Source: Anaeromyces robustus
Lineage: Eukaryota; Neocallimastigomycota; Neocallimastigomycetes; Neocallimastigales; Neocallimastigaceae
Length of the DNA stretch: 64,000 nucleotides
Direction: 5' to 3'
NCBI GenBank assembly: GCA_002104895.1
Contig: MCFG01000240.1
Location: 38,501 to 102,500, forward strand
Within the stretch, counting starts at the first letter, position 1, and each line of letters begins with the position of its first letter. Shown in pieces: positions 1-59,178 of the stretch. A model generated the notes under the pieces. That model saw only the letters and a list, made by a program, of their open reading frames with translations. It did not search any database and was not told the DNA's origin. The position numbers and the translations under genes are program-made.

Positions 1-3000
1 TCCAATGGATATTTCACATCTATTGGTAAATAGGCTCCACCTGCTTTTGACACAGCGAGTGTTCCAATGACATAATATGGTGATCTTTCACATATAATTG
101 GTACAATGTCATTTCTTTTAATGCCAATTTCTTTTAAATAATATGCTAATGAATTACTCATTTCATCCAATTCTCTATATTTGTATTTTTCATTATTAAA
201 TATTAAAGCTATGGATTCAGGTTTTTCCTTAGCTACACGACTAAATTCAACATGATATAATTTATCACAATCATATGAATAATTATTATTATTGAATTGG
301 GTGATAATTTTTTCTTTTTCTTCTTTTGGAATATATTCAATTTCTTGAATATTTTCATTGAATTTATCTAAATTTTCAATAACTTCAATATAACTATTTA
401 TGATATTCTCTATTATCGATAATTCATATATTCTTTTATTATAATTTATTGTTAATAAATATCCTCCTTCACTTTCAATAACATTGAATGTTATATCAAA
501 TTTGGTGGTATTATTATTATTTAATAGAAGTTCATCATATTCTTCATAAAGAGTATAATTCTTTTCCATTTCTTCTTTTGAAAATATTGATTCACCTGAA
601 TTATCATATTCAATTATACCTTTAGGTTGGAATATAAAGGAATTATTAATTTTTTTCAATTTTAAATTATCCAAGAGTTCTGAAAATGATATATCTTGAT
701 TATTATATAATTCCATTAAAGTTTCCATGTTTTCTTTAAATATATCTATAAATGTTTTATTCTCTTTATCATATTTAAGAAGAATTGGTTGTGTACTTAT
801 AAACATACCAATCATATTTTCTACATAGTGATTATTACGATTAGCACTCATCATTGAAGTATATATAACGTCTTGTCCACTATATTTACTTAATATATAT
901 CCATAAATACTAATAAAGAAGGCTGTTTTACTAATTTTATTAATTCGGATGAATTTATTGATCTTTTCACTAGTTATTTTATCAATAATCTTGAAACATT
1001 CTCCGATTTCATTTTCTTCCTTCTCATTTACATTAAATTCATTTGATTTTTCTTTTTGAGGAATATTTGTAATTTCATAATCTTCTTTAAACATTTCATT
1101 ATAAAATTCTAATTGTTTAGAATATAATTCACTACTTTTCATTTCATTCATATGAATAGCATAATCACTAAATTGAACTTCTAACTTACTTAATGGTAAT
1201 CCATAATAATACTTATTAATTTCATTTCTAATAATTGATGTTGTGGTACCATCAGATATAATGTGATGCATATCAATTAATAATACTTCATCTTTAATAA
1301 ATCCAACTCTAATTAATGGTGCTTTAGATAAATCAAATGGTCTAATAAATGTTTTATAATTATCATATGTATATTCTTCAAACGTTAATACACATTCATC
1401 ATCAATAATACCATAAATTTCTGTTTTATTATCAATTTCTTTTTCAATATATTTACTTCTTAAAATATCTTGTTGATATAACAATTTATTAAATCCATCT
1501 TTAATTTTTTCTTTATCTATTGATTTTTTAAGGTAGAATACATCAGGAATATTATATATTATACTATTAGGATTCTTGATTGAATCTATATAAACTCCCA
1601 TTTGTTGTGATGTTATTGGATATTCCTTACTATTGTGTCTTACAATTTCAATTTTATCTTTTATTTCATTTTCATTTTCATATTCATTTTCTTTTTTCAT
1701 TTTTTCTTCAATAAATCTTCCAAATTCATATATTAGTGTATGTGAAAATATATCTCTCATATTAATTTTAATATTAAATACTTTTTCAATTAAAGTACAA
1801 ACTTGAATTGCATTGAAACTATCTCCTCCAAGTTCATAGAAATCATTATTTCTACCAATTTCTTCTTTATCAATATTAAATATTTTACTATATATTTCAC
1901 ATATTTTTTCTTCAACTTCATTTTCTGGTAATGAATATAATTCTTTCATTAAATCTTTAATATTTGGTTCCGGTAATTGTTTTCTATCCAATTTACCATT
2001 TGATGTGACTGGAAGTTTATCAAGTTTAACGAAATAATTTGGAACCATATATGAAGGAAGTCTACTCTTCAAATATTCTCTTATTTCCTTTCCATTAATT
2101 AATTTTGAGCTGATGAAATAACATACCAAATATTTATCTCCATTTTCTTTTTCTTTATCAATTACTGTAGAATATTTAATTTCTTTCATTTCTTTAATTG
2201 TATTTTCAATTTCTTCCAATTCAATTCTTTGACCATGAATTTTAACTTGGAAATCAACTCTTCCAAGATACTTTATTTCTCCATTTCTTGTCCATTTACC
2301 TAAATCTCCTGTTTTATACATCATTCTACCTTTATCAAATGGATTGTTAATAAAGTTCTTTTTCGTTAACTCTGGTCGATTAAGATATCCTTCTCCAACA
2401 TTATTTCCACTTACATAAATCTCACCTTCAACTTCTATAGGAACAGGATGTAAATATTTATCTAAAATATAAATGGAACAATTACAAATTGGTTTTCCAA
2501 TAGTTATATCAATTTCATCTCCTTCATTGATTTCTTTTATTGAAGAATCAACTGTACATTCAGTTGGACCATAACTATTATAGATTTTACATTTAGAACA
2601 TTCACGAATTGATTTACATAAATCTAATGATAAGGCTTCACCTCCTAAATATATTATTTTTACATTACTTAAAGACTTTTTAAATTCATCGTTTTCAATA
2701 AATAATTTAAATCTAGTTGGTGTAGTGTTAATTAAATCCACATTATTATCAACAATATATTTTGATAATAATTTAATATTAGATGAAATTATATCATCAA
2801 TTAATATAATTTTTAATCCATGAACCAAACTAAATGTAATTTCTGTTTGTGATGCATCAAATGAAAAATTAGTTATAGATAAAACATTTCGTACATTATT
2901 ATCTTTAATAAAAATATTATATATACATAAATCTTCGTCTTTACTATTTTTATCATCTTCTTCTTCAAATGATCTTACATAATTATACATATTAGAATGA

Positions 3001-6000
3001 TTGATTAATACTCCTTTTGGTTTTCCTGTGGTACCAGAAGTAAATAGTACATAACATATATCTTCGGGTTTATTTATATTAACCGTTTCATATGTATCAT
3101 TATTATAATTATGTGTACGTAAATTATAATAATTATATTTATTAGTTATAGTGTTTTTCACATTTTCAATATTAACAGCGTCATATAGAATAATGCTTGG
3201 ATTAACTTCTTTTAAAATATATTCAATTCTTTTAATTGGTAATTTTGTGTCAATTGGTAAATAAGCCGCACCAGATTTCGATACTGAAAGGAAAGCAATG
3301 ATATAGTATGGGTTTCTATCAGTAATAATAGGAATAATATCATTTCTTTTTACTCCTACCTTACGTAAATAATTTGATAAAGAATTTGACATCATATCTA
3401 ATTCTTTATATGTAATATTCTTTTCATTATATTTTATAGCAATTTCTTCAGAATTAATTTTAGATATCCTTTGGAATTCTTCATGATAGCATTTATTACA
3501 TTCAAGATTATGTTTATTACAATTAAATTCATATAATATTTTATCATTCATACTCTTTGGTATATATTTAACTGTTTCAATTGATTCATTGAATCTATTC
3601 ACATTATTTATTACTTCTTCATAACTATCCATTATATCTTCAATCATAGATGATTCATACAAGTTTTTATTATATTCAAGACTTAATAAATATCCTTCTT
3701 CAATTTCAATTGCGTTGAATGTTATATCAAATTTGGTGGTATTATCATTGTTTAACTGGAATTCATTATATTCCTCGTAAAGAGTGTAATTATTTTGGGT
3801 TTTATCATTTGAAAATATAGATTCATCTGAATTATAATTCTCAACTATTCCTTTAGGTTGGAATATAAAAGAATTATTAATTTTCTTTAGTTTCAAACTA
3901 TTTACAAGTTCAGAAAATGATATATCTTGGTTATTATATAATTCCATTAATATTTCCATATTTTCTTTAATAATATCTAAGAATGAAATATCTGATTTAT
4001 CATATTTAAGAAGAATTGGTTGTGTACTTACAAACATACCAATCATATTTTCTACATAATGATTATTACGATTTGTACTCATCATTGAAGTATATATAAT
4101 TTCTTGTCCACTATATTTACATAATATATATCCATAAATACTAATAAAGAATGCTGTCTTACTAATCTTATTAAATTTAATAAAATCATTAATTTCTTTA
4201 CTTACTGAATTATTTATAATTTTAAAACATTCTCCAATCTCATTTTCTTTATTATCTCTTTTGTTATATTCATTTGATCTTTCTTTCTGAGGTATATTTG
4301 TAATTTCATAATCTTCTTTAAACATTTCTTTATAAAATTCTAATTGTTTAGAATATAATTCACTACTTTTCATTTCATTCATATGAATAGCATAATCACT
4401 AAATTGAACTTCTAATTCTGTTAATTCTAATTCTTTATAATATTTATTAATTTCATTTATAATAATTGACATTGTTGTACCATCTGAAATAATATGATGC
4501 ATATCAATCAATAATACTTCATTACCAATAAATCCTACTCTAATCAATGGTGATTTAGATAAATCAAATGGTCTAACAAACATTCCACAATTATCATAGG
4601 TATATTCTTCAAATAGTAATGAACATTCATCATCAATATATCCATAAATTTCGGTTTTACCATCAATTTCTTTTTTAATAAATTTACTTCTCAATATTTC
4701 TTGTTTATATAACATCATTTCAAATCCTTCTTTAATTCTTTCAATATTAATTGATTTATTAAGTTGCAATGCTCTAGGAAGATTATAAATTATACTATTT
4801 GGATTCTTAATCGAATCAATATATACTCCCATCTGTTGTGAGGTTATAGGATATTCTTTACTATATCTTCTATCAATATGTATGTATTTCAATGATTTAT
4901 TTTCATTTCTATCTTTATTAACTATTGATTCAATACATTTGGCTAAATCTTTTACTTCAATATATGTTAAAATATCTTTAATATTTATTTTAACATTCAT
5001 TTCTTTTTCAATTGTATACTTTACACGAATAGCATTTAAACTATTACCTCCAATATCATAAAAGTTTGTTGTTCTTCCAACGTTATTAATATCAATATTG
5101 AAAATAGAACTATAAATTTTACAAATGAATCTTTCAACTTCTGTTTCAGGCTTGACGTATACTTCCTTGATTCTATCTTCTATATTTGGTTCTGGTAGAG
5201 CTTTTCTATCTAACTTTCCATTGGATGTAACTGGGAAATTATTTACTCTAATGTAATAATTTGGAATCATGTACTTTGGAATTTTCGTAGTTAAATATTC
5301 TCTTATTTCTTCTCCTGTAATCTCGGAATCGCTTTGATAATAACATATTAAATATTTATTTCCTTCTTCATTAACTTTATCTATAACTACAGAATACTTA
5401 ATTAATGAATATTCATTAAGAATATTCTCTATTTCTCCTAATTCAATTCGTTGTCCATTGATTTTAACTTGGAAATCAATTCTTCCAATATAATCAATAT
5501 CTCCTTCAGCGGTCCATTTACCAAGATCTCCAGTTTTATACATGATTTGATTATGCATATCTTCATCTCTAAATGGACATTCAATAAACTTTTCATTTGT
5601 GAGTTCTTCACGATTTAGATATCCTTTACCAACACAGTATCCTCCAATATATATTTCTCCTTCAACTCCAATAGGAACTGGATTAAGAGATTTATCTAAA
5701 ATATATATTTTACAATTACAAATGGGTTTTCCTATAGTTATTGTACTTTCAGTATCTTCTTTTATCTCTTTAAATGTAACAAAGTAACATTCAGTTGGTC
5801 CATATCCATTTATAATTTTACATTTAGAATATTGATGAATATATTTACATAAATTATATGGTAATTCTTCACCTGAAAATATCATAACTTTGATGGTTTT
5901 CAATATCTTTTTGAATTCTTCATTTTCCATAAATAATTTAATTCTACTTGGTGTAGTGTTAATTAAATCAACTTTATTATTCAGAATATAAGTAGATAAA

Positions 6001-9000
6001 GATGTAACATCTTCACTTAATTCTTCATCAACTAATACAATAGTTAATCCATGAATTAAACAGTATGTAATTTCATTATGTGCGATATCAAAAGAGAATT
6101 TAGTAATTGCAAGAATGTTTTGAATATTGTCTTCCATTAAAATGTTATACATACTTAAGCATGAATCGTCATTTTCGAATTTTCTTAAATAGTTATAAAT
6201 ATTAAAATGACTAACTAATGCTCCTTTTGGTTTACCAGTTGTTCCAGATGTAAAAAGAACATAACATGTATCCTCTGGTTTATTTATATTTTCAATCGAC
6301 ATCTTATTCTTACTATAATCATGATCATTAATATTATATATATTATATTCTGGATTTTGTTCTAAATTTTTCACGATTTCTTCTACATCATATGTAAGAA
6401 TAAGTTTTGGTTTAACATCATTCAAAATAAACTTTATACGTTCTATTGGGAATTTTACATCAATTGGTAAATATGCTCCACCTGCTTTTGATACAGCAAC
6501 TGATGCAATTACATAATATGGTGATCTTTCACTAATAATTGGTACTATATCATTTCTTTTAATACCACATTCTCTTAAATAATGTGCTAATGAATTACTC
6601 ATTTCATCAAGTTCTCGATATTTATATTTTTCATTATTAAATATCAAGGCTATTGATTCGGGTTTTTCTTTAGCAATACGACTAAATTCAACATGATATA
6701 TTTTATCACAGTCAAAAGTAATATTATTATCATTAAATTTGTTAATAATCTTTTCTTTTTCTTCTTTTGGAATATAATCAATTTCTTTAATATTTTCATT
6801 GAATATATCGATATGTTCAACGAATTCAATAAAACTATTCATAATATTTTCAATCATTATAGATTCATATATTTTATTATTATATTCAATACTAAATATG
6901 TAGTTTTTCTCTTTTTCAATAGCATTAAATAATATATCAAACTTTGTATTATTTTCATTATTTAATTGTAATTCTTTATTGTCTTGATAAAGAGTATATA
7001 TCATTTCATTTTCTTCTTTTAAAAATATTGATTTATTCGAAGGACTATCTTCAGTAATACTCTTAGGTTGAAAAATAAATGCATTATTGAATTTTTTCAA
7101 TTTTAAAGTATTCACCATTTCTGAAAATGATATATCTTGATTATTATATAATTCTATTAATAATTCCATGTTTTCTTTAATAATATCTAAGAATGAAATA
7201 TCTGATTTATCATATTTAAGAAGAATTGGTTGTGTACTTACAAACATACCTATCATGTTCTCTACATAATGATTATTTCTATTGGCACTCATCATCGAAG
7301 TATATATAATATCTTGTCCGCTATATTTACTTAATATATATCCATAAATACTAATAAAGAAGGCTGTCTTACTTATTTTATTTATACGTAAATATTCATT
7401 AATCTTATCACTCATACTTTGATCAATGGTTTTAATATAATATCCAATCTCATTTTCTTTACTTTCTTTTACATCTTTAAATTCTCCATTATATACTGTT
7501 ATCTTTTCTTTCTGAGGAATATTTGTTATTTCATAATCTTCTTTAAACATTTCTTTATAAAACTCTAATTGTTTAGAATATAATTCACTACTTTTCATTT
7601 CATTCATATGAATAGCATAATCACTAAATTGAACTTCTAATTCTTTTAATTCTAATCCATTATAATATTTATTAATTTCATTTCTAATAATAGACATTGT
7701 AGTACCATCTGAAATAATATGATGTATATCAATTAATAATATTTCATTTGCAATAAATCCTATTCTAATCAATGGGGCTTTAGATAAATCAAATGGTCTA
7801 ACAAACATTTTATAATTATCATATGTATATTCTTCAAACTTTAATAAACATTCATCATCAATAACACCATATATTTCGGTATTACCATTGATATCCAATG
7901 GAATATATTTACTTCTTAAAACATTTTGCATATTAAATAATCTTATAAATCCTTCTTTAACTTTTTCAATTTCAATAGATGTATTAAGTTTTAATATAAC
8001 AGGCATATTATAAATTATACTATTAGGATTCTTAATTGAATCAACATATATTCCCATTTGTTGTGATGTAATAGGATATTCTTTACTATTTCTTTTCTTT
8101 ATTTCAATAATATTATATATTTCATTTTCTTTTTCATTTCTTTCTTTTATTTTATTATCAATGAATTTTCCAAATTCATATATTATTGAATGTGAAAATA
8201 TATCTCTCATATTTATCTTAATCATAAATACCTTTTCAATTAAATTGCATATCCGAATTGCATTAAAACTATTTCCTCCAAGTTCATAGAAATCATTATT
8301 TCTACCAATTTCATTAATATCAATATTAAATATTTCACTATATATTTCACATATTTTTTCTTCAATTTCATTTTCTGGTGATGAATATGATTCTTTCATT
8401 AATTCTTTAATGTTTGGTTTTGGTAATGATTTTCTATCTAATTTACCATTGGATGTTACTGGAAGATAATCGAGTTTTATGAAATAATTTGGAATCATAT
8501 ATGAAGGAAGTTTATTTTTCAAATATCTTCTGATTTCATTTCCATTAATTATATTTTCACTAATGAAGTAACATACTAAATATTTATCTCCATTATCATG
8601 TTCTCTATCAATTACTGTAGAATATTCAATTCCTTCAATTTCCTTAATTGTATTTTCAATTTCACTTAATTCAATTCTTTGACCACGAATCTTAATTTGG
8701 AAATCAATTCTTCCTAAGCATACTATTTCTCCTTCTTCATTCCATTTACCTAAATCGCCTGTTCTATACATTGTACATGGATTTCCATTAATATTGTGAT
8801 ATGGACATTCAATGAACATTTTTTTCGTTAATTCTGGTTGATTAAGATATCCTTTTCCAACACCATATCCACTAATAAATATTTCTCCAACTACTCCGAT
8901 TGGAACTGGTTTTAAAGTCTTATCTAAAATATACATATTAAAATTACAAAGAGGTTTTCCTACTGAATTCTCTTCTATTTCAGAATTGTATTTATTTTTA

Positions 9001-12000
9001 TATTCATTTAAATCTTTAATATTACTAATAACTGTTGTTTCTGTAGGTCCATAACCATTAAATATTCTTATATTTTCAAATATTCTTAATTTTTTTACAA
9101 AATTAATATTTAATTTTTCTCCAGCAAACATTAATATCTTAACATATTTTAATGAATTGTAAAATTCTTCATAATTTATATAGACTTCTAATCTTGTCGG
9201 TACACTAAATATATAATCAATATAATATTTACTAATTAATTTTCCAAGTTTTATAGGATCATTATATTCATCTTCATTACAAAGTATTATTCTAAGACTA
9301 TTTAAAAGTGGTAAATAAATTTCTCCTATAGACATATCATGTGTAAATTTCGAATACGATAATGCATTCTCTATCTTTTCATTAAATATATATTCATTTC
9401 CACTATTTTTAAGACTAAATAAACAATAATTTATTAAATTATTATGTGTAATCATTGTTCCTTTAGGTTTTCCTGTAGTTCCTGATGTAAAAAGAACATA
9501 GCATAAATCATCACTCTCATTAATATTATTTATTTCTTCAATATTATCATCATAATTATGTTCTGATAATGAATAAATATTCCATTCATGATTTTGAAGT
9601 TTAATTCGATTCTCTTTGTTAGTCACATATTCTAATATCATTTTAGATTGAACTTCTTCCACCATGAATTTAATACGGTCTTCTGGATAATCAGGATCAA
9701 TTGGTAAATATGCTGCTCCTGATTTCATTATTGCTAATGCTCCAATTACAAAATAGAAGGATCGTTCACTAATAATTGGTATGATATCTCCTCTTCCAAC
9801 ATTATGTTCTCTCATATAATGACCTAACGAATTACTCATTTTATCTAATTCTGAATAGCTAATTTCGATTCCATTACAAACAATTGCTATCTTGTTTTTA
9901 TTTTCTTTTGCTACTCTACTAAATTCAACATGATATAATTTATCACAATCATATGAATAATTATTATTATTGAATTGGGTGATAATTTTTTCTTTTTCTT
10001 CTTTTGGAATATATTCAATTTCTTGAATATTTTCATTGAATTTATCTAAATTTTCAATAACTTCAATATAACTATTTATGATATTCTCTATTATCGATAA
10101 TTCATATATTCTTTTATTATAATTTATTGTTAATAAATATCCTCCTTCACTTTCAATAACATTGAATGTTATATCAAATTTGGTGGTATTATTATTATTT
10201 AATAGAAGTTCATCATATTCTTCATAAAGAGTATAATTCTTTTCCATTTCTTCTTTTGAAAATATTGATTCACCTGAATTATCATATTCAATTATACCTT
10301 TAGGTTGGAATATAAAGGAATTATTAATTTTTTTCAATTTTAAATTATCCAAGAGTTCTGAAAATGATATATCTTGATTATTATATAATTCCATTAAAGT
10401 TTCCATGTTTTCTTTAAATATATCTATAAATGTTTTATTCTCTTTATCATATTTAAGAAGAATTGGTTGTGTACTTATAAACATACCAATCATATTTTCT
10501 ACATAGTGATTATTACGATTAGCACTCATCATTGAAGTATATATAACGTCTTGTCCACTATATTTACTTAATATATATCCATAAATACTAATAAAGAAGG
10601 CTGTTTTACTAATTTTATTAATTCGGATGAATTTATTGATCTTTTCACTAGTTATTTTATCAATAATCTTGAAACATTCTCCGATTTCATTTTCTTCCTT
10701 CTCATTTACATTAAATTCATTTGATTTTTCTTTTTGAGGAATATTTGTAATTTCATAATCTTCTTTAAACATTTCATTATAAAATTCTAATTGTTTAGAA
10801 TATAATTCACTACTTTTCATTTCATTCATATGAATAGCATAATCACTAAATTGAACTTCTAACTTACTTAATGGTAATCCATAATAATACTTATTAATTT
10901 CATTTCTAATAATTGATGTTGTGGTACCATCAGATATAATGTGATGCATATCAATTAATAATACTTCATCTTTAATAAATCCAACTCTAATTAATGGTGC
11001 TTTAGATAAATCAAATGGTCTAATAAATGTTTTATAATTATCATATGTATATTCTTCAAACGTTAATACACATTCATCATCAATAATACCATAAATTTCT
11101 GTTTTATTATCAATTTCTTTTTCAATATATTTACTTCTTAAAATATCTTGTTGATATAACAATTTATTAAATCCATCTTTAATTTTTTCTTTATCTATTG
11201 ATTTTTTAAGGTAGAATACATCAGGAATATTATATATTATACTATTAGGATTCTTGATTGAATCTATATAAACTCCCATTTGTTGTGATGTTATTGGATA
11301 TTCCTTACTATTGTGTCTTACAATTTCAATTTTATCTTTTATTTCATTTTCATTTTCATATTCATTTTCTTTTTTCATTTTTTCTTCAATAAATCTTCCA
11401 AATTCATATATTAGTGTATGTGAAAATATATCTCTCATATTAATTTTAATATTAAATACTTTTTCAATTAAAGTACAAACTTGAATTGCATTGAAACTAT
11501 CTCCTCCAAGTTCATAGAAATCATTATTTCTACCAATTTCTTCTTTATCAATATTAAATATTTTACTATATATTTCACATATTTTTTCTTCAACTTCATT
11601 TTCTGGTAATGAATATAATTCTTTCATTAAATCTTTAATATTTGGTTCCGGTAATTGTTTTCTATCCAATTTACCATTTGATGTGACTGGAAGTTTATCA
11701 AGTTTAACGAAATAATTTGGAACCATATATGAAGGAAGTCTACTCTTCAAATATTCTCTTATTTCCTTTCCATTAATTAATTTTGAGCTGATGAAATAAC
11801 ATACCAAATATTTATCTCCATTTTCTTTTTCTTTATCAATTACTGTAGAATATTTAATTTCTTTCATTTCTTTAATTGTATTTTCAATTTCTTCCAATTC
11901 AATTCTTTGACCATGAATTTTAACTTGGAAATCAACTCTTCCAAGATACTTTATTTCTCCATTTCTTGTCCATTTACCTAAATCTCCTGTTTTATACATC

Positions 12001-14507
12001 ATTCTACCTTTATCAAATGGATTGTTAATAAAGTTCTTTTTCGTTAACTCTGGTCGATTAAGATATCCTTCTCCAACATTATTTCCACTTACATAAATCT
12101 CACCTTCAACTTCTATAGGAACAGGATGTAAATATTTATCTAAAATATAAATGGAACAATTACAAATTGGTTTTCCAATAGTTATATCAATTTCATCTCC
12201 TTCATTGATTTCTTTTATTGAAGAATCAACTGTACATTCAGTTGGACCATAACTATTATAGATTTTACATTTAGAACATTCACGAATTGATTTACATAAA
12301 TCTAATGATAAGGCTTCACCTCCTAAATATATTATTTTTACATTACTTAAAGACTTTTTAAATTCATCGTTTTCAATAAATAATTTAAATCTAGTTGGTG
12401 TAGTGTTAATTAAATCCACATTATTATCAACAATATATTTTGATAATAATTTAATATTAGATGAAATTATATCATCAATTAATATAATTTTTAATCCATG
12501 AACCAAACTAAATGTAATTTCTGTTTGTGATGCATCAAATGAAAAATTAGTTATAGATAAAACATTTCGTACATTATTATCTTTAATAAAAATATTATAT
12601 ATACATAAATCTTCGTCTTTACTATTTTTATCATCTTCTTCTTCAAATGATCTTACATAATTATACATATTAGAATGATTGATTAATACTCCTTTTGGTT
12701 TTCCTGTGGTACCAGAAGTAAATAGTACATAACATATATCTTCGGGTTTATTTATATTAACCGTTTCATATGTATCATTATTATAATTATGTGTACGTAA
12801 ATTATAATAATTATATTTATTAGTTATAGTGTTTTTCACATTTTCAATATTAACAGCGTCATATAGAATAATGCTTGGATTAACTTCTTTTAAAATATAT
12901 TCAATTCTTTTAATTGGTAATTTTGTGTCAATTGGTAAATAAGCCGCACCAGATTTCGATACTGAAAGGAAAGCAATGATATAGTATGGGTTTCTATCAG
13001 TAATAATAGGAATAATATCATTTCTTTTTACTCCTACCTTACGTAAATAATTTGATAAAGAATTTGACATCATATCTAATTCTTTATATGTAATATTCTT
13101 TTCATTATATTTTATAGCAATTTCTTCAGAATTAATTTTAGATATCCTTTGGAATTCTTCATGATAGCATTTATTACATTCAAGATTATGTTTATTACAA
13201 TTAAATTCATATAATATTTTATCATTCATACTCTTTGGTATATATTTAACTGTTTCAATTGATTCATTGAATCTATTCACATTATTTATTACTTCTTCAT
13301 AACTATCCATTATATCTTCAATCATAGATGATTCATACAAGTTTTTATTATATTCAAGACTTAATAAATATCCTTCTTCAATTTCAATTGCGTTGAATGT
13401 TATATCAAATTTGGTGGTATTATCATTGTTTAACTGGAATTCATTATATTCCTCGTAAAGAGTGTAATTATTTTGGGTTTTATCATTTGAAAATATAGAT
13501 TCATCTGAATTATAATTCTCAACTATTCCTTTAGGTTGGAATATAAAAGAATTATTAATTTTCTTTAGTTTCAAACTATTTACAAGTTCAGAAAATGATA
13601 TATCTTGGTTATTATATAATTCCATTAATATTTCCATATTTTCTTTAATAATATCTAAGAATGAAATATCTGATTTATCATATTTAAGAAGAATTGGTTG
13701 TGTACTTACAAACATACCAATCATATTTTCTACATAATGATTATTACGATTTGTACTCATCATTGAAGTATATATAATTTCTTGTCCACTATATTTACAT
13801 AATATATATCCATAAATACTAATAAAGAATGCTGTCTTACTAATCTTATTAAATTTAATAAAATCATTAATTTCTTTACTTACTGAATTATTTATAATTT
13901 TAAAACATTCTCCAATCTCATTTTCTTTATTATCTCTTTTGTTATATTCATTTGATCTTTCTTTCTGAGGTATATTTGTAATTTCATAATCTTCTTTAAA
14001 CATTTCTTTATAAAATTCTAATTGTTTAGAATATAATTCACTACTTTTCATTTCATTCATATGAATAGCATAATCACTAAATTGAACTTCTAATTCTGTT
14101 AATTCTAATTCTTTATAATATTTATTAATTTCATTTATAATAATTGACATTGTTGTACCATCTGAAATAATATGATGCATATCAATCAATAATACTTCAT
14201 TTGCAATAAATCCTATTCTAATCAATGGGGCTTTAGATAAATCAAATGGTCTAACAAACATTCCACAATTATCATAGGTATATTCTTCAAATAGTAATGA
14301 ACATTCATTATCAATAATACCATATATTTCGGTTTTACCATTGATATCCATTGGAATATATTTACTCTTCAATATGTCTTGTTTATTAAATAATCTTATA
14401 AATCCTTCTTTAACTTTTTCTTTATTTATCGATTTATTAAGGTGGAATGCATCGGGAATATTATATATTATACTATTAGGATTCTTAATTGAATCAATAT
14501 AAATTCC
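1..14507 (-). CDS. Giant NRPS, C-terminal segment (partial): C6-A6-T6 to C10-A10
   Basis: Restoring the register after the missing base at 14506/14507 gives a frame that I find open to position 1, about 4830 codons, with no stop. It encodes the rest of C6 (HHIISDG near 14170), then A6-T6-C7-A7-T7-C8-A8-T8-C9-A9-T9-C10 and the first roughly 85 residues of A10. A-domain GTTGKPKG motifs lie near 12697, 9462, 6226 and 3017; carrier-domain Ser motifs near 11500, 8275, 5045 and 1830; HHIISDG near 10940, 7720, 4495 and 1257. The terminal module and any thioesterase, reductase or terminal C domain lie to the left of the window. This segment has no start of its own: it is the downstream part of the gene starting at 30688. 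Much of it is near-identical to other modules of the same gene. Confidence 0.88.
241..4521. repeat. Duplicated NRPS block, module 9 copy (matches 9919-14199)
   Basis: Partner of the 9919-14199 block. It encodes part of C9, A9-T9, C10 and the beginning of A10. Upstream of position 241 the two copies diverge: VAKEKPES-type A domain here, VAKENKNK-type at 9880-9918. Confidence 0.9.
4310..7740. repeat. Duplicated NRPS block, module 8 copy (matches 17209-20639)
   Basis: At an offset of 12899 bases (four modules) this 3.4-kb stretch matches 17209-20639 with only scattered substitutions, for example near 6174, 6271 and 6410. It covers part of C8, A8-T8 and the N-terminal part of C9. It overlaps the end of the 241-4521 block, so the left end of module 8 is shared by several copies. 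Confidence 0.85.
7745..9290. repeat. Duplicated NRPS block, module 7 copy (matches 14197-15742)
   Basis: At an offset of about 6452 (two modules) this matches 14197-15742. Identity is moderate in the C-domain part (7745-8050) and very high from 8058 to about 9020, and the copies diverge in the A-domain binding-pocket region. The partner copy begins exactly where the module 6 block (9919-14199) ends. Confidence 0.8.
9919..14199. repeat. Duplicated NRPS block, module 6 copy (matches 241-4521)
   Basis: At an offset of 9678 bases (three modules) this 4.28-kb stretch reads the same as 241-4521 wherever I compared lines. It covers parts of C6, A6-T6, C7 and the start of A7. Identity extends over both conserved motifs and fast-evolving linkers, so the duplication or conversion is recent. 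It stops abruptly near 4521/14199. Confidence 0.9.
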
Positions 14508-15742
14508 ATTTGTTGTGATGTAATAGGATATTCTTTACTATTTCTTTTCTTTATTTCAATAATATTATATATTTCATTTTCTTTTTCATTTCTTTCTTTT
14601 ATTTTATTATCAATGAATTTTCCAAATTCATATATTATTGAATGTGAAAATATATCTCTCATATTTATCTTAATCATAAATACCTTTTCAATTAAATTGC
14701 ATATCCGAATTGCATTAAAACTATTTCCTCCAAGTTCATAGAAATCATTATTTCTACCAATTTCATTAATATCAATATTAAATATTTCACTATATATTTC
14801 ACATATTTTTTCTTCAATTTCATTTTCTGGTGATGAATATGATTCTTTCATTAATTCTTTAATGTTTGGTTTTGGTAATGATTTTCTATCTAATTTACCA
14901 TTGGATGTTACTGGAAGATAATCGAGTTTTATGAAATAATTTGGAATCATATATGAAGGAAGTTTATTTTTCAAATATCTTCTGATTTCATTTCCATTAA
15001 TTATATTTTCACTAATGAAGTAACATACTAAATATTTATCTCCATTATCATGTTCTCTATCAATTACTGTAGAATATTCAATTCCTTCAATTTCCTTAAT
15101 TGTATTTTCAATTTCACTTAATTCAATTCTTTGACCACGAATCTTAATTTGGAAATCAATTCTTCCTAAGCATACTATTTCTCCTTCTTCATTCCATTTA
15201 CCTAAATCGCCTGTTCTATACATTGTACATGGATTTCCATTAATATTGTGATATGGACATTCAATGAACATTTTTTTCGTTAATTCTGGTTGATTAAGAT
15301 ATCCTTTTCCAACACCATATCCACTAATAAATATTTCTCCAACTACTCCGATTGGAACTGGTTTTAAAGTCTTATCTAAAATATACATATTAAAATTACA
15401 AAGAGGTTTTCCTACTGAATTCTCTTCTATTTCAGAATTGTATTTATTTTTATATTCATTTAAATCTTTAATATTGCTAACAACTGTTGTTTCTGTAGGT
15501 CCATAAACATTATATATATTTAAATTTTCAAATATTCTTAATTTTTTTACAAAATTAATATTTAATTTTTCGCCACCTAACATTAATATCTTAACATATT
15601 TTAATGAATTGTAAAATTCTTCATAGTTTATATAGACTTCTAATCTTGTCGGTACACTAAATATATAATCAATATAATATTTACTAATTAATTTTCCAAG
15701 TTTTATAGGATCATTATATTCATCTTCATTACAAAGTATAAT
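14197..15742. repeat. Duplicated NRPS block, module 5 copy (matches 7745-9290)
   Basis: Partner of 7745-9290, lying immediately next to the end of the 9919-14199 block. It contains the frameshift at 14506/14507, which the module 7 copy lacks. Confidence 0.8.
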
Positions 15743-18700
15743 TTTTGATCCATTCAAAAGTGCAAAATTTATTTCTCCTATTGATATATCATGTGTAAAT
15801 TTAGTAAAGCTTAATATATTATTTATTTTTCTATAAAATATACTTTCTTCCCCATTGTTTGTTTGAGTATATAAACAATAATTTATTAAATTGTTATGTG
15901 TAATCATTGTTCCTTTAGGTTTTCCTGTAGTTCCTGATGTAAAAAGAACATAGCATAAATCATCACTCTCATTAATATTATTTATTTCTTCAATATGATC
16001 TTCGTAATTATGTTCTGATAATGAATAAATATTCCATTCATGATTTTGAAGTTTAAGTCGATTCTCTTTATTAGTTACATATTCTAATATCATTTTAGAT
16101 TGAACTTCTTCCACCATGAATTTGATACGTTCTTCTGGATAATCAGGATCAATTGGTAAATATGCTGCTCCTGATTTCATTATTACTAATGCTCCAATTA
16201 CAAAATAGATGGATCTTTCACAGATAATAGGTATGATATCTCCTCTTCCAATATCATGTTCTCTCATATAATGACCTAATGAATTACTCATTTTATCTAA
16301 TTCGGAATAACTAATTTCAATTCCATTACAAACAATTGCTATCTTGTTTTCATTTTCTTTTGCTACCTGACTAAATTCAACATGATATAATTTATTACAA
16401 TCGTATTCAAATACATTGTTATTGAATTTATTGATAATCTTCTCCTTTTCTTCTTTTGGAATATATTCAATTTCTTTAATATTATTATTGAATTTATCTA
16501 ACCATTTAATTATTTCAATATAACTATTCATGATATTTTCGATCAATGAAGATTCATATTTTCTTTCATTATATTCTATCATAAATGAATATCCTCTTTC
16601 ACTTTCAATTACATTGAATGTGATATCAAATTTAGTCTTATTATCAATATTTAACAAGAAATTATTTGATTCTTCATAAAGAGTATAATTCTTTTTCATC
16701 TCTTCTTTTGTAAATATCGTTTCATCCGATTCATTATTTTCAATAATACTCTTAGGTTGGAAAATAAATGCATTATTAACTTTCTTTAATTTTAATGTAT
16801 TTACAAGTTCTGAAAATGATATATCTTGGTTATTATATAATTCCATTAATATTTCCATGTTTTCTTTAATAATATCTAAGAATGAATTATTTAGTTTGTC
16901 ATATTTTAGAAGAATTGGTTGTGTACTTACAAACATACCAATCATATTTTCTACATAATGATTATTTCTATTGGCACTCATCATCGAAGTATATATAATT
17001 TCTTGTCCACTATATTTACATAATATATATCCATAAATACTAATAAAGAAGGCCGTTTTACTTATTCTATTTACACGTAAATATTCATTAATCTTATCAC
17101 TCATATGTTGATCAATATCATTAAAGCAATTTCCAATTTTACTTTCTTCCATTCCATTTATATTGAATTCACTTAATTTTTCTTTCTGAGGAATACTTGT
17201 TATTTCATAATCTTCTTTAAACATTTCTTTATAAAATTCTAATTGTTTAGAATATAATTCACTACTTTTCATTTCATTCATATGAATAGCATAATCACTA
17301 AATTGAAATTCTAATTCTGTTAATTCTAATTCTTTATAATATTTATTAATTTCATTTATAATAATTGACATTGTTGTACCATCTGAAATAATATGATGCA
17401 TATCAATCAATAATACTTCATTACCAATAAATCCTACTCTAATCAATGGTGATTTAGATAAATCAAATGGTCTAACAAACATTCCACAATTATCATAGGT
17501 ATATTCTTCAAATAGTAATGAACATTCATCATCAATATATCCATAAATTTCGGTTTTACCATCAATTTCTTTTTTAATAAATTTACTTCTCAATATTTCT
17601 TGTTTATATAACATCATTTCAAATCCTTCTTTAATTCTTTCAATATTAATTGATTTATTAAGTTGCAATGCTCTAGGAAGATTATAAATTATACTATTTG
17701 GATTCTTAATCGAATCAATATATACTCCCATCTGTTGTGAGGTTATAGGATATTCTTTACTATATCTTCTATCAATATGTATGTATTTCAATGATTTATT
17801 TTCATTTCTATCTTTATTAACTATTGATTCAATACATTTGGCTAAATCTTTTACTTCAATATATGTTAAAATATCTTTAATATTTATTTTAACATTCATT
17901 TCTTTTTCAATTGTATACTTTACACGAATAGCATTTAAACTATTACCTCCAATATCATAAAAGTTTGTTGTTCTTCCAACGTTATTAATATCAATATTGA
18001 AAATAGAACTATAAATTTTACAAATGAATCTTTCAACTTCTGTTTCAGGCTTGACGTATACTTCCTTGATTCTATCTTCTATATTTGGTTCTGGTAGAGC
18101 TTTTCTATCTAACTTTCCATTGGATGTAACTGGGAAATTATTTACTCTAATGTAATAATTTGGAATCATGTACTTTGGAATTTTCGTAGTTAAATATTCT
18201 CTTATTTCTTCTCCTGTAATCTCGGAATCGCTTTGATAATAACATATTAAATATTTATTTCCTTCTTCATTAACTTTATCTATAACTACAGAATACTTAA
18301 TTAATGAATATTCATTAAGAATATTCTCTATTTCTCCTAATTCAATTCGTTGTCCATTGATTTTAACTTGGAAATCAATTCTTCCAATATAATCAATATC
18401 TCCTTCAGCGGTCCATTTACCAAGATCTCCAGTTTTATACATGATTTGATTATGCATATCTTCATCTCTAAATGGACATTCAATAAACTTTTCATTTGTG
18501 AGTTCTTCACGATTTAGATATCCTTTACCAACACAGTATCCTCCAATATATATTTCTCCTTCAACTCCAATAGGAACTGGATTAAGAGATTTATCTAAAA
18601 TATATATTTTACAATTACAAATGGGTTTTCCTATAGTTATTGTACTTTCAGTATCTTCTTTTATCTCTTTAAATGTAACAAAGTAACATTCAGTTGGTCC

Positions 18701-21700
18701 ATATCCATTTATAATTTTACATTTAGAATATTGATGAATATATTTACATAAATTATATGGTAATTCTTCACCTGAAAATATCATAACTTTGATGGTTTTC
18801 AATATCTTTTTGAATTCTTCATTTTCCATAAATAATTTAATTCTACTTGGTGTAGTGTTAATTAAATCAACTTTATTATTCAGAATATAAGTAGATAAAG
18901 ATGTAACATCTTCACTTAATTCTTCATCAACTAATACAATAGTTAATCCATGAATTAAACAGTATGTAATTTCATTATGTGCGATATCAAAAGAGAATTT
19001 AGTAATTGCAAGAATGTTTTGAATATTGTCTTCCATTAAAATGTTATACATACTTAAGCATGAATCGTCATTTTCAAATTTTCTTAAATAGTTATAAATA
19101 TTAAAATGACTAACTAATGCTCCTTTTGGTTTACCAGTTGTTCCAGATGTAAAAAGAACATAACATGTATCTTCTGATTTATTTATATTTTCAATCGACA
19201 TCTTATTCTTACTATAATCATGATCATTAATGTTATATATATTATATTCTGGATTTTGTTCTAAATTTTTCACGATTTCTTCTACATCATATGTAAGAAT
19301 AAGTTTTGATTTAACATCATTCAAAATAAACTTTATACGTTCTATTGGGAATTTTACATCAATTGGTAAATATGCTCCACCTGCTTTTGATACAGCAACT
19401 GATGCAATTACATAATATGGTGATCTTTCACTAATAATTGGTACTATATCATTTCTTTTAATACCACATTCTCTTAAATAATGTGCTAATGAATTACTCA
19501 TTTCATCAAGTTCTCGATATTTATATTTTTCATTATTAAATATCAAGGCTATTGATTCGGGTTTTTCTTTAGCAATACGACTAAATTCAACATGATATAT
19601 TTTATCACAGTCAAAAGTAATATTATTATCATTAAATTTGTTAATAATCTTTTCTTTTTCTTCTTTTGGAATATAATCAATTTCTTTAATATTTTCATTG
19701 AATATATCGATATGTTCAACGAATTCAATAAAACTATTCATAATATTTTCAATCATTATAGATTCATATATTTTATTATTATATTCAATACTAAATATGT
19801 AGTTTTTCTCTTTTTCAATAGCATTAAATAATATATCAAACTTTGTATTATTTTCATTATTTAATTGTAATTCTTTATTGTCTTGATAAAGAGTATATAT
19901 CATTTCATTTTCTTCTTTTAAAAATATTGATTTATTCGAAGGACTATCTTCAGTAATACTCTTAGGTTGAAAAATAAATGCATTATTGAATTTTTTCAAT
20001 TTTAAAGTATTCACCATTTCTGAAAATGATATATCTTGATTATTATATAATTCTATTAATAATTCCATGTTTTCTTTAATAATATCTAAGAATGAAATAT
20101 TTGATTTATCATATTTAAGAAGAATTGGTTGTGTACTTACAAACATACCTATCATGTTCTCTACATAATGATTATTTCTATTGGCACTCATCATCGAAGT
20201 GTATATAATATCTTGTCCGCTATATTTACTTAATATATATCCATAAATACTAATAAAGAAGGCTGTCTTACTTATTTTATTTATACGTAAATATTCATTA
20301 ATCTTATCACTCATACTTTGATCAATGGTTTTAATATAATATCCAATCTCATTTTCTTTACTTTCTTTTACATCTTTAAATTCTCCATTATATACTGTTA
20401 TCTTTTCTTTCTGAGGAATATTTGTAATTTCATAATCTTCTTTAAACATTTCTTTATAAAATTCTAATTGTTTAGAATATAATTCACTACTTTTCATTTC
20501 ATTCATATGAATAGCATAATCACTAAATTGAACTTCTAATTCTGTTAATTCTAATCCATTATAATATTTATTAATTTCATTTCTAATAATAGACATTGTA
20601 GTACCATCTGAAATAATATGATGTATATCAATTAATAATACTTCGTTTTCAATAAATCCTACTCTAATCAATGGTGCTTTAGATAAATCAAATGGTCTAA
20701 CAAACGTTTTATAGTTATCATAGGTATATTCTTCAAACTTTAATAAACATTCATCATCAATAATACCATATATTTCGGTTTTACCATTTATTTCTTTTTC
20801 AATATATTTACTTCTTAAAACATCTTGCTTTTTAAATAATCTACTAAATCCGTTTTTAACTTTTTCAATGTCAATGGATTTAATAAGCTTAAATGCTTCA
20901 GGAATATTATAAATTATACTATTAGGATTCTTAATAGAATCTATATATACACCCATTTGTTGTGATGTAATTGGATATTCTTTACAATCACATTTTTCAA
21001 TTTCATTTAAATCATATGATTCATTTTCACTTTCTTCGTTTGCATTTATCTTTTTATTAATAAATTGTCCTAAATCATATATTACTGTATTTGAAAATAT
21101 ATCTCTCATATTTACTTTAATTTTAAATTCTTTTTCCATTAAAGTATAAACTTGAATTACATTAAAACTATCTCCTCCAAGTTCGTAGAAATCGTTATAT
21201 CTTCCAATTTCATTTATATCTATATTAAATACTTGACTATATATTTTACAAATAATCTTTTCAATTTCTGTTTCTGGTGCAACATATTCTTCTTTATTAA
21301 GATTCTTAATATTTGGTTCTGGTAATGATTTTCTATCTAATTTACCATTGGATGTTACTGGAAGGTTACCAATTTTTACGAAATAAGTTGGAATCATGTA
21401 TGATGGAAGTTTACTTTTCAAATATCTTCTGATTTCATTTCCATTAATAATATTTTCACTAATGAAGTAACATACTAAATATTTATTTCCATTTTCATAT
21501 TTTCTATCAATTACTGTAGAATATTCAATTCCTTTCATTTCTTTAATTGTATTTTCAATTTCACTTAATTCAATTCTTTGACCACGAATTTTTACTTGGA
21601 AATCGATTCTTCCTAAACATACTATTTCTCCTTCTTCATTCCATTTACCTAAATCGCCTGTTCTATACATTGTACATGGATTTCCATTAATATTGTAATA

Positions 21701-24700
21701 TGGACATTCAATGAACATCTTTTTCGTTAATTCTGGTTGATTAAGATATCCTTTTCCAACTCCATATCCACTAATAAATATTTCTCCAACTACTCCAATT
21801 GGAACTGGTTTAAACGTTTCATCTAAAATATATATTTTGCAATTACATAATGGTTTACCGATGTTTATTTTAATATTATCGATATCTTCATTATTATTTC
21901 CATAAGTTAATTGTTTAAGTGTACAATTAACTGTTGTTTCTGTTGGACCATAAGCATTATATATTACTGCATTAGTACTTTTAATGATGTTTTTTAATAA
22001 TTTAGGATTTAACACTTCTGCACCCATATACATCCATTTTATATTTCTCAATGAATCTTTAAATTCTTTGTTTTTAATGTAATTTTCCATTCTTGTAGGT
22101 GTAATAATCATAAAATCAACATTTCCTTTTTTTATTAAATTTCCTATTAATATAGGGTTATTATATTCATTATCATTACAAATTATTACTCTTGATCCAA
22201 TTAATAATGGTAAATAAATTTCACCTATAGATATATCAAATGTGAATTTGGAAATTGCTAAACTATTTTCTATAGTTGATCCAAACATATTCTTTCCGTT
22301 ATACGTTTGACTGTATAAACAATAATTTATTATATTATTATGTGTAATCATTGTTCCTTTAGGTTTTCCTGTAGTTCCTGATGTAAAAAGAACATAGCAT
22401 AAATCATCACTCTCATTAATATTATTTATTTCTTCAATATGATCTTCGTAATTATGTTCTGATAATGAATAAATATTCCATTCATGATTTTGAAGTTTAA
22501 GTCGATTCTCTTTATTAGTTACATATTCTAATATCATTTTAGATTGAACTTCTTCCACCATGAATTTGATACGTTCTTCTGGATAATCAGGATCAATTGG
22601 TAAATATGCTGCTCCTGATTTCATTATTGCTAATGCTCCAATTACAAAATAGATGGATCTTTCACAGATAATAGGTATGATATCTCCTCTTCCAATATCA
22701 TGTTCTCTCATATAATGACCTAATGAATTACTCATTTTATCTAATTCGGAATAACTAATTTCAATTCCATTACAAACAATTGCTATCTTGTTTTCATTTT
22801 CTTTTGCTACCTGACTAAATTCAACATGATATAATTTATTACAATCGTATTCAAATACATTGTTATTGAATTTATTGATAATCTTCTCCTTTTCTTCTTT
22901 TGGAATATATTCAATTTCTTTAATATTATTATTGAATTTATCTAACCATTTAATTATTTCAATATAACTATTCATGATATTTTCGATCAAAGAAACTTCA
23001 TATATACCTTGATTATATTCTATTATGAATGAATATCCCTCTTCCCTTTCAATAACACTGAATGTTATATCAAATTTGGCAGTATTATCATTATTTAATT
23101 GAATTTCATTAGATTCTTCATAAAGAGTATATGTCGTTTGAATATCTTCATTAGAAAAAATTGATTCATCGGATTCATTATTTTCAATGATGCTCTTAGG
23201 TTGGAAAATAAATGCATTATTAACTTTCTTTAATTTTAATGTATTTACAAGTTCTGAAAATGATATATCTTGATTATTATACAATTCCATTAATAATTCC
23301 ATATTTACTTTAAGAATATCTAAGAATGAATTATATTCTTTATCATATTTAAGAAGAATTGGTTGCGTACTTACAAACATACCAATCATATTTTCTACAT
23401 AATAGTTAGTTCTATTGGCATTCATCATTGAAGTATATATAATTTCTTGTCCACTATATTTACTTAATATACATCCATAGATACTTATAAAGAATACTGA
23501 CTTACTAATTCTATTGATTCGAATAAATTCATCGATTATTTTACTAGTTGAATTATCTATGACTTTAATACATTTTCCAATTTTATTTTCTTTCAAACTA
23601 TATTCATTTATTCTTTCCTTTTGAGGAATATTTGTAATTTCATAATCTTCTTTAAACATTTCTTTATAAAATTCTAACTGCTTAGAATACAATTCACTAT
23701 TTTTCATTTCATTTATATAAACAGCGTAATTACTAAATTGAACGTCTAACTCTGAAATTTGTAATCCATTATAGAATTTATTAATTTCATTTATAATAAT
23801 TGACATTGTAGTACCATCAGATATTATATGATGCATATCAATTAATAAAACTTCATTTCCAATAAATCCTACTCTAATTAATGGTGCTTTGGATAAATCA
23901 AATGGTCGAACAAATGTTTTAACGTTTTCATATGTATATTCTTCAAACATCAATAAGCATTTATCATCAATATGTCCATAAATTTCTGTTTTACCATTTA
24001 TTACCTTTGTAATAAATTTACTTCTTAAAATAATTTGTTTATCAAATAATATTTCAAATCCCTTTTTAATTTTTTCAATATCAACAGGTTTATTGAAATG
24101 GAAAATTCTAGGTATATTATATATAATGCTATTAGGATTTTTAATTGAGTCAATATATATTCCCATTTGTTGTGATGTTATTGGATATTCTTCATAATTA
24201 AATTTCTTGATTTCAATTAAACCGAATGATTCATTTTCATTTTCTATATTACTATTTATTTTATTTTCAATAAATTTTCCTAAATCATATATTATTGTAT
24301 GTGAAAGTACATCTTTCATGTATATCTTAACCAAAAATTCTTTTTCAATATATGTTGCTACTCGAATGGCCTGAAGACTATCTCCTCCTAATTCTAAAAA
24401 GTCTTGTGTTCTTCCAATCTTACTTTTATTAATATTAAATATCTTACTATATATTTCACATATCTTTTCTTCAATTTTATTTTTTGGTTTTATAAATTCT
24501 TCTTCCACTATATCTTCTATTTCTGGTTCAGGTAAAGCTTTCCTATCTAATTTACCATTTCTAGTAATTGGTAATTCACTAATTAATTTGAAATAATTTG
24601 GAACCATATAAATTGGAAGTTTGGATTTAAGGTATTCTCTAATTTTCTTACCTTGATTACTACTACTATCTGTACTTGGATTTTTCATGGTATAATAACA

Positions 24701-26194: not shown

Positions 26195-26197
26195 TTA
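26195..26197 (-). other. In-frame TAA inside the NRPS C2-A2 linker
   Basis: The stop sits in the linker that follows every C domain, in the context NKFN-stop-SIKEIEYIPKEE. In sister modules the same linker reads NKFNNNIKEIEYIPKEE or RFNESIETVKYIPK, with identical length and frame. A single GAA-to-TAA change in an NES-type linker would produce it. The reading frame is open on both sides with no spacer, promoter or Kozak-like context, which argues against two separate genes. Confidence 0.85.
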
Positions 26198-35635: not shown

Positions 35636-36396
35636 TTATTTTAATTTTATTTAAAAACATAAAATAGATCAAATAAAATAATTAAGAATTGAATAGGTAA
35701 TATTCATAAATAATAATAACAATAATAATTAATATTAAAATAAAATTTAAAATATAATATTTAGAATAGTAAATTACAAATAATAATAATTAAATTAAAT
35801 AATTAAATAAATGAATCATAATAATTATGATAATTTAAAGATTATAATAGTAAATTAATGTAATATAAAAGGAGGATAATTTTCTTTCTTTTATAAAAAA
35901 TTATTAAGCTATAAAAAATTTATTATAATAAGAATATATTGTTCTTGAATCATCTTAATAAATAAATAATGAAATTAATAATTTATAATTAATTATAATA
36001 TTTAATTTTTATGTCAGGAATATTAGTGAATTTAAAATTGAAATTTCACTAATAGATGAATTGAAATTAAACTTTCGTTATTGACAAAATCACTTAAAAA
36101 ATTCGATTATTATTTAAAAGAAATGATTATTCGAGTGTATTTTAAATTCAAAAATTAAAGGGTTTGGACCATTAAAAGGAAATTTATATCAATCTAATTT
36201 AACCCTTGATAATTTAATAAAAATAAAAATGAAGAAAAATAATTGATAACTCATCAAACCGCTGATTTTATGTTCATTGAGAAGCTCTGTTCAAAGGCTA
36301 CTACAACATATATTAATTTTAGCTCATTTAGATCACTAGTTTACGAGATATTAATTAATTAATTATTACAATTAGTAGTTTAGTTAATTAATTTAA

Positions 36397-36641
<245 letters not shown>

Positions 36642-36665
36642 TTCCTCAATAATAAAAAATAAATA

Positions 36666-37670
36666 ATGGATAATTTTATAAAATTAATTGATAATGAAGA
36701 TGTTGAAGAAATTAAATTATTTATAAATGACAATAACATTATTAATAAACGAGACATTGTTTTAGAATTATATAATGAAAATTTGCTTACGCCTGAAAGA
36801 TTAAAGTTTATTGCAGAGAAATGTTCCAAATATTTAAATTTGTCATCAACTTTAATAAAAATTTTAATGAAGAATAATAATTCAAAATTATTAAATATTA
36901 TTTTTAATAATTTAAAATTTTTTGACAATAAATATATTTTAAAGTTACTTTCTCATTATCAAAATAAAAAATCAATAACTTTATCTGATTTAAATCGACA
37001 ATTTGAGAAATATAAGCTTCCAATAGATCATAATTTATTATATGAGGATAATCATACCTATCTAATAAGAGCATGTAAAAATGGCAATGAAAATATGGTA
37101 AATTTTTTAATTAAACATGGATTAGATATAAATAAAACAGACAAGAATGGTTCAACTCTATTATTTTATTCTTGTGAAAATGAAAATGAAAGTATAATGA
37201 AATATTTAATTCAGCATGGTGTAAATATAAATATAAAAAATAATAGTGGTAATACACCATTAAGTAATGCATGTATTAAAGGAAATGAAAATATCGTAAA
37301 ATATTTAATTGAACATGGAGCAGATATAAATAATGTAAATCGAAGAGGTGATACTCCATTATTTGAAGCATGTAAAAATGGACATGAAAATATAGTAAGA
37401 TATTTAGTTGAAAATGGTGCAGATGTAAATATGGGAAATCGGATAGATGAAACACCAATATTTAAGGCCTGTTATAATGAAGATGAAAAAATGGTAAATT
37501 GTTTAATTGAACTTGGAACAGATATAAATAAAAAAAATATCTATGGTAAAACTCCATTATATGTTGCATCTACCTATGGCAATAATAATATAGTTAAATA
37601 TTTGATTGACCATGGAGCCAAAGTAAATACAAAAGAATTATTGTTTATTTATTTTTGTTTATTTATTTAA
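36666..37670 (+). CDS. Ankyrin-repeat protein
   Basis: 334 residues from ATG 36666. Residues 1-127 are a helical, Asn/Lys/Leu-rich N-terminal region without a recognised domain. From about residue 128 come six ankyrin repeats of 33 residues (for example SGNTPLSNACIKGNENIVKY and RGDTPLFEACKNGHENIVRY), with the usual G-x-TPL and LI-x-HGADIN positions. Ankyrin repeats mediate protein-protein contacts; no partner can be inferred. There is no signal peptide. The frame ends abruptly after the sixth repeat in a TTTATTT-rich stretch, and a hydrophobic frame follows in another register (37655-37927), so the annotated C-terminus (ELLFIYFCLFI) may be artificial. The gene stands alone between AT-rich spacers. 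Confidence 0.9.
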   Translation: MDNFIKLIDNEDVEEIKLFINDNNIINKRDIVLELYNENLLTPERLKFIAEKCSKYLNLSSTLIKILMKNNNSKLLNIIFNNLKFFDNKYILKLLSHYQNKKSITLSDLNRQFEKYKLPIDHNLLYEDNHTYLIRACKNGNENMVNFLIKHGLDINKTDKNGSTLLFYSCENENESIMKYLIQHGVNINIKNNSGNTPLSNACIKGNENIVKYLIEHGADINNVNRRGDTPLFEACKNGHENIVRYLVENGADVNMGNRIDETPIFKACYNEDEKMVNCLIELGTDINKKNIYGKTPLYVASTYGNNNIVKYLIDHGAKVNTKELLFIYFCLFI

Positions 37671-39621: not shown

Positions 39622-41456
<1,835 letters not shown>

Positions 41457-42144
41457 CAATTCATGAATAATCTAATAATAATAGATAAATAAATAAATAA
41501 ACAATTAATGAATAATAAGTTATAGAATAATAATAAAATAATAAAATAATTAAATAAAATAAAAATAACAAATAAAAAATAAATAAATAAATAAATAAAT
41601 AAGTAAAAACTATAAATTCAAGAATTATGTATTAATTATTGGGTAAAAAAAAATAATAAATATTATTTATGGTATTTATTATATTATTATTTTGCATTTT
41701 TACATTTAGTAAATTATTATTTTGCATTTTTACATTTAGTAAATTATTATTTTATATATTTTATATTTTATATTTTATATTTTATATTTTATATTTTATA
41801 CATAATATTTTATATTTTAACCTTTGATTAAGTAGAATTTGATATTTTGTTAGTGTTTGTTTTTTGTTATAATAATTATTTATTATACTTTTTGAAAAAA
41901 AAGGTTTGTCATGTTTGTCATGTTTATACACAAAATAACATAATATATAAAAATAATAATAAATAATAATGATGAATTAATATTTAAAAATTTTAAATAA
42001 TTTTATCAAGAAATAATATTTATTTGAATATATTATAGAATATATTATAGTACAATCTAATAGTATAATTAAATGTAATATAATTTAATTAAATATAGTC
42101 TAATATAATAATAAATAAAAATAATAGAAATCATTGTAATATAA

Positions 42145-58978: not shown

Positions 58979-59178
<200 letters not shown>

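Follow-up and report, generated by a model that had tools for sequence, protein, structure and literature searches.

How do two modules of a single giant enzyme come to share more than four kilobases of DNA without a single difference? The question is raised by a nonribosomal peptide synthetase (NRPS) gene on contig C158 of a genome assembly of 70,169,043 bases in 769 contigs. We analyzed a stretch of 64,000 nucleotides of this contig (C158:38501-102500), called the window here and used for all coordinates that carry no contig name. Its GC content is very low (19.8%). The NRPS gene runs on the minus strand from C158:69203 to 32053, past the end of the window, and consists of three stop-free frames (C158 64698-69203, 52971-64694 and 32053-53034). 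A Pfam scan took in the two outer frames of the three in the window, and in both of them PF00668 (Condensation), PF00501 (AMP-binding) and PF00550 (PP-binding) scored above their cut-offs. Eleven carrier motifs, 3.2-3.3 kb apart, define 11 modules, and our table of adenylation domains likewise holds 11 for this gene. With its repeated condensation (C), adenylation (A) and carrier (T) domains the gene is an NRPS gene by domain content, and a further condensation-like domain, judged by eye from the translation, lies downstream of the last carrier. The portion inside the window is the following.

3 to 30688, minus strand: NRPS gene portion, from module 1 and C2 (26195-30688) to part of module 10, placed by reading frames, Pfam matches and module motifs

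Exact tracts between the modules of one gene

Comparison of the window with itself gave, as the longest exact repeat, a direct repeat of 4,284 bp in which positions 240-4523 equal 9918-14201. The initial annotation had described 241-4521 and 9919-14199 as reading alike; they are in fact letter-for-letter identical, and the self-alignment that it proposed as a check returned these 4,284 bp as the maximal exact match. The offset between the copies, 9,678 bp, corresponds to three modules. Direct comparison found no mismatch inside the repeat, which we call tract d, and a mismatch immediately beyond each of its ends.

240 to 4523, minus strand: tract d, modules 9-10 copy; C9 from 8 codons before the HHxxxDG motif, A9, T9, C10 and the C-A linker, to the start of A10 (exact match with edges placed on the domains)
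9918 to 14201, minus strand: tract d, modules 6-7 copy; C6 from 8 codons before HHxxxDG, A6, T6, C7 and the C-A linker, to the start of A7

At 1.3 modules in length, tract d comprises the acceptor part of C6/C9, the A and T domains, the whole of C7/C10 and the linker, and is without the first part of C6/C9 and without A7/A10. It ends within one codon of the start of A7, which we took as the start of the Pfam match to A8 transferred via the A3 motif. The module numbers 6 and 9 used in the initial annotation match the count from the N terminus, and its description of the block as these two modules holds from the middle of their C domains onward, but the block lacks the start of C6/C9 and adds the C domain of modules 7/10. 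The aligned pieces next to each edge keep the same offset as the tract, and in these flanks identity is 67% between A7 and A10 and 79% between the first parts of C6 and C9.

The length of the match lies far outside what chance would give. At 80-84% identity between modules, an analytic estimate over 45 module pairs puts the longest expected exact run at about 46-58 bp. In a GENECONV-style test with 1,000 permutations, the run of identical polymorphic sites common to modules 6 and 9 comprises 1,399 sites, where permutation reached 176 at most; for modules 7 and 10 the run was 704 sites and the permutation maximum 32. Because both the expected run and the permutation maxima are so far below what is observed, chance is excluded for the 4,284-bp match. 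With 0 differences in 4,284 bp, the rule of three puts the divergence of the two copies below about 0.07%. A genome search for further copies scored 7 of 121 candidates, so that its list is a lower bound; among the matches listed (at least 14, two at 100% and twelve at 70-82%) there was no third copy of tract d and no allelic contig.

Tract d is one of several such tracts in the gene, which join other module pairs at other offsets.

4298 to 7745, minus strand: tract c, modules 8-9 copy; C8 from just before HHxxxDG, A8, T8 and the first part of C9, overlapping tract d by about 227 bp (edges from alignment)
17197 to 20644, minus strand: tract c, modules 4-5 copy, at an offset of 12,899 bp from the modules 8-9 copy
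8050 to 9028, minus strand: tract b, module 7 copy; C-terminal part of A7, T7 and start of C8, with an exact 970-bp core (8054-9023 = 14506-15475)
14503 to 15480, minus strand: tract b, module 5 copy; C-terminal part of A5, T5 and start of C6, its edge coinciding with a frame break
15890 to 16550, minus strand: tract a, module 5 copy; C5-A5 linker and N-terminal part of A5, with 3 mismatches in 661 aligned columns against module 3 and exact pieces of 361 and 291 bp
22334 to 22994, minus strand: tract a, module 3 copy; C3-A3 linker and N-terminal part of A3

The longest of these, tract c, carries 11 mismatches in 3,439 bp (4303-7741; about 0.3%), with exact pieces of 1767, 791 and 224 bp. Five of the 11 are clustered within 234 bp of the A domain. 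Along 145 bp of this cluster region module 8 matches module 2 exactly, suggesting a small patch of later date. By a hand calculation, equal age of tract c (11 in 3,439) and tract d (0 in 4,284) has a probability of about 1 in 7,000, or about 1 in 130 when the cluster of five mismatches is set aside, which suggests that tract d is the younger and that the two stem from separate events. Tract c abuts tract d in modules 8-10, whereas the corresponding modules 4-7 side skips one module length (12,899 - 9,678 = 3,221 bp); modules 8-10 therefore resemble modules 4-7 minus one module, as a patchwork of modules 4-5 and 6-7. At the skipped place, C5 and C6 share 224 of 227 aligned columns.

The two tracts also begin at nearly the same point of the module alignment, columns 540 (tract c) and 537 (tract d). 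Beside this start, many pairs among modules 4-10 share 106-154 aligned bases with 1-2 mismatches, a near-identical stretch that could have served as a landing site for recombination. At the other end of tract d, the C-A linker is nearly identical in modules 7, 10 and 11 as well. An apparent difference between modules 5 and 9 near alignment column 130 was taken as an effect of the alignment, direct comparison showing no mismatch there. Exact internal repeats of at least 100 bp cover 49% of the gene, and its identity tracts stand well above the alignment background, with sharp edges within homologous sequence.

The same pattern was found elsewhere in the genome. A search for condensation domains scored 76 matches of 165 candidates, and five NRPS genes were read, named here after their contigs (C158, C93, C424, C50 and C279). 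Exact tracts between modules occur in all five and exceed 1 kb in three, the longest measuring 4,284 bp in C158, 2,637 bp in C93, 2,067 bp in C424, 322 bp in C50 and 238 bp in C279; in C424 and C50, matches offset by 30-39 bp belong to small tandem repeats rather than to module tracts. Significant runs of polymorphic sites were obtained by the same permutation test in C424 and C93. The four genes other than C158 each have a single stop-free frame, of 12,319 (C93), 7,076 (C50), 6,970 (C424) and 6,107 (C279) codons, and the C93 gene (C93:13062-50018) holds 11 modules in its frame and appears to be an intact giant NRPS gene. Between genes, by contrast, exact matches reach at most 58 bp in the six pairs formed by C158, C93, C424 and C50, and at most 56 bp between C279 and C158, the only partner with which C279 was compared. 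Since no cross-gene match over these 7 of the 10 gene pairs exceeds 58 bp, exchange appears to be confined within genes. Whole-module DNA identity is 71-97% among modules 2-11 of C158, 65.7-94.9% in C424 and 66.7-92.8% in C93, against 63.5-73.3% between these genes; the lowest values within genes overlap the range between genes, and homogenization is thus only partial.

Probable recombination and rival explanations

Because the tracts have sharp edges in homologous sequence, involve several partners and offsets and are restricted to the gene, we consider it probable, and hold with some confidence, that they result from recurrent homologous recombination within the gene, by gene conversion or unequal exchange, amounting to concerted evolution. 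The initial annotation had proposed a "very recent segmental duplication or gene conversion inside one gene", and this remains the best supported account of the identity, given the sharp edges, the mosaic of tracts and the exact tracts in four other NRPS genes. Homology would let the modules of the C158 gene recombine among themselves. The 4.3-kb tract (the acceptor part of C, with A, T and all of the following C) would, in the most recent event still visible, have been copied in frame between modules 6-7 and 9-10, either by gene conversion or by unequal exchange followed by overwriting, and a second, probably older event would have copied sequence between modules 4-5 and 8-9. The mechanism, direction and age of these events and their effect on the peptide we infer from the sequence.

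Several observations weigh against this account. The copy number and the exact identity rest on one assembly, and the data are compatible with either direction of copying and equally with conversion or with unequal crossing-over plus overwriting. In C50 and C279 the tracts reach only 322 and 238 bp, and the least alike modules of C424 (65.7%) and C93 (66.7%) are no closer to each other than modules of different genes are. The frame of the C158 gene is, moreover, broken at two places, which could reflect gene decay or consensus errors.

14506 to 14507, minus strand: frame break in the T5-C6 linker, a one-base length difference against the other modules in a short homopolymer
26195 to 26197, minus strand: in-frame TAA between C2 and A2

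The frame break falls exactly at the edge of tract b, whose exact part starts at 14506, and it could be an imprecise recombination join or a consensus error. In-frame TAA codons were found in four of the 76 condensation matches (C158:64650-65972, C431:11502-12815, C126:89455-90783 and C166:47607-48890), for which decay, introns or consensus errors are possible causes.

The strongest alternative, which overlaps with recombination between modules, is that the main event was an unequal crossing-over which duplicated three or four whole modules in tandem, tracts c and d being its remnants after later changes. The offsets are indeed whole numbers of modules (3 and 4), and with tracts c and d combined, modules 8-10 resemble modules 4-7 minus one, at the very place where C5 and C6 are nearly identical. 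A duplication of three modules nevertheless predicts 9.7 kb of likeness, and only 4.3 kb is alike, so that identity does not extend over the whole unit. The 67% identity of A7 and A10 directly beside a block at 100% is a step that point mutation alone cannot produce, and the differing mismatch densities of tracts c and d suggest two events rather than one. We regard whole-module duplication as a possible contributor, though a less likely explanation of the tracts as they now stand.

A further alternative, and one that the initial annotation itself voiced, is that the identical blocks were made by assembly or polishing, either because two similar stretches were given one consensus or because one block was placed twice. 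Module repeats of 3.2 kb are difficult to assemble, one edge of tract b falls on a frame break, and the C93 NRPS gene has a 3-kb run of N (C93:55001-58000) at a distance of 5 kb. The flanks of tract d, however, differ at all four ends, and the adjoining tract c retains its 11 mismatches over 3.4 kb, so that close copies were not flattened there. An assembler could, by our reasoning, re-order a direct repeat of two copies only by losing the sequence between them. Tracts are also present in the genes with single stop-free frames, although a systematic polishing error could still affect all of them. These points lower the likelihood of an artefact, and we judge it improbable. The idea that strong purifying selection holds two old segments identical can hardly be entertained, since all 4,284 bases agree, silent sites included, shared A-domain specificity would favor likeness at the protein level only, and A domains of the same type in two other genes are only 64-65% identical in protein.

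If the identical tracts are genuine, they represent recent swaps of modules in nature with legible seams, and the joints that NRPS evolution has tried lie inside the C domain just before its active-site motif and in the C-A linker. The units of such swaps, made of part of a C domain, A, T and the next C domain, would lie near the exchange units used by engineers, which are cited in work on bacterial exchange (PMC8097286). More speculative, and in our estimation rather unlikely, is that internal shuffling of the NRPS genes of this fungus is ongoing at these preferred seams (before HHxxxDG in C and in the C-A linker) and alters the sequence and length of the peptide on a population time scale. 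Genuine tracts would also suggest ways in which a giant peptide synthetase of a little-studied group may alter its product. They also carry a warning for annotation, as long reads are needed before products are predicted for such genes.

Adenylation pockets and setting of the gene

The specificity pockets were read from an alignment of 34 A domains, using the position numbers of gramicidin synthetase; one position is gapped in three domains, which include A4 and A8 of C158. With positions read by motif anchors, A6 and A9 are identical at all nine pocket positions, and A4 and A8 at the eight of nine that could be read. Since the tracts include the A domains, the pockets within each pair are alike, and two building blocks would be expected to enter the predicted peptide twice each. 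A5 and A7 are nearly identical on either side of pockets that differ. The A6 pocket recurs unchanged in C424 (module 2), and module 2 of C93 has it with a single change, so that DA[T/S]NILSVD is found, the same or nearly so, in three NRPS genes between which module DNA is otherwise 63.5-73.3% identical; in protein the A domains of these two modules are only 64-65% identical to A6. Some A-domain types are thus common to different genes, and two such types each occur twice in C158.

When bacterial and archaeal genomes were scanned once with an A6-type domain, seven loci were obtained. Five, the nearest bacterial relatives in that scan, match over almost the full length at 36-43% identity; the other two are a partial match at 21% and a match over only 34 residues. 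The five near full-length relatives belong to Clostridia-type records, two with titles that mention sheep colon and goat cecum. In this single scan, the bacterial relatives proved of no use for dating the tracts.

The source of the DNA was addressed through the fungal dockerin family PF02013, for which 150 matches were scored among 683 candidates in this genome and none was found in 14 control genomes. An abundance of PF02013 dockerins is tied to the Neocallimastigomycota, as is a very low GC content such as that of the window, and together with the NRPS genes the dockerins make an anaerobic gut fungus the most likely source. The neighbors of the NRPS gene in the window are as follows.

36666 to 37670: ankyrin-repeat protein
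39622 to 40608: Cthe_2159-type carbohydrate-binding protein
44171 to 48706: subtilase with ricin-B lectin domains
55920 to 58595: subtilase
61541 to 63997: ricin-B lectin/chitin-binding protein

The half of the window without the NRPS gene also carries long simple repeats of AAAT type at 36393-36689, 41313-41586 and 58950-59270, which give rise to many repeat pairs (seen among the best 12 of 259).

Comparison with known systems

Processes of this kind have been described in several groups. Concerted evolution of NRPS and polyketide synthase domains is known within bacterial gene clusters (Medema et al. 2014, PMC4256081). As there, the modules of C158 are homogenized internally, modules 2-11 being 71-97% alike against 63.5-73.3% between genes, and, among the genes compared, long exact tracts were found only within genes. 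The present case differs in that the earlier work concerns bacterial clusters and protein trees, whereas here the tracts are exact in DNA, have mapped edges and come from a probable fungus, and in that some modules of C424 and C93 are no closer within than between genes.

Exchange in bacterial NRPSs has been found to involve mainly the core of the A domain, with the native C-A linker and the A-sub/T interface kept and larger units exchanged only rarely (Baunach et al. 2021, PMC8097286). Common to both systems is that exchange between modules alters the amino acid used, and the A5/A7 pair resembles the A-core pattern. Tracts c and d, unlike most of the bacterial cases, transfer A, T and C as one unit that has an edge within C, and their nearest counterpart is the A-T-C-A exception BP17.

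In fungi, tandem duplication of modules is known from NRPSs such as the cyclosporin and peptaibol synthetases, and later internal duplicates have been noted, for example modules 18/19 of T. reesii (Bushley and Turgeon 2010, PMC2823734). There as here, many modules have their closest relatives within the same gene; the evidence considered from that study is A-domain phylogeny, whereas C158 offers an exact tract of 1.3 modules with recombination edges. Module duplication, recombination and gene conversion have all been proposed for fungal NRPSs (PMC2823734, PMC2644324), and recombination that altered an A domain after duplication of an NRPS gene has been described for the wollamides (PMC9205934). 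The portions consulted of PMC6361889, on dinoflagellates, and of PMC11747023, a review, contain nothing that bears on this case.

Closest in organism is the work on anaerobic gut fungi, whose NRPS genes include some with close bacterial relatives (Swift et al. 2021, PMC8106346). It probably deals with the same kind of organism as ours, and a word search found neither "duplicat" nor "module" in its main text. In the literature that we searched on gut fungi and gene conversion and on NRPS gene conversion, no earlier report of this case was found. The process in C158 is of a known kind, and the gene is a clear new example of it, in which the units are larger than usual and one edge lies inside the C domain.

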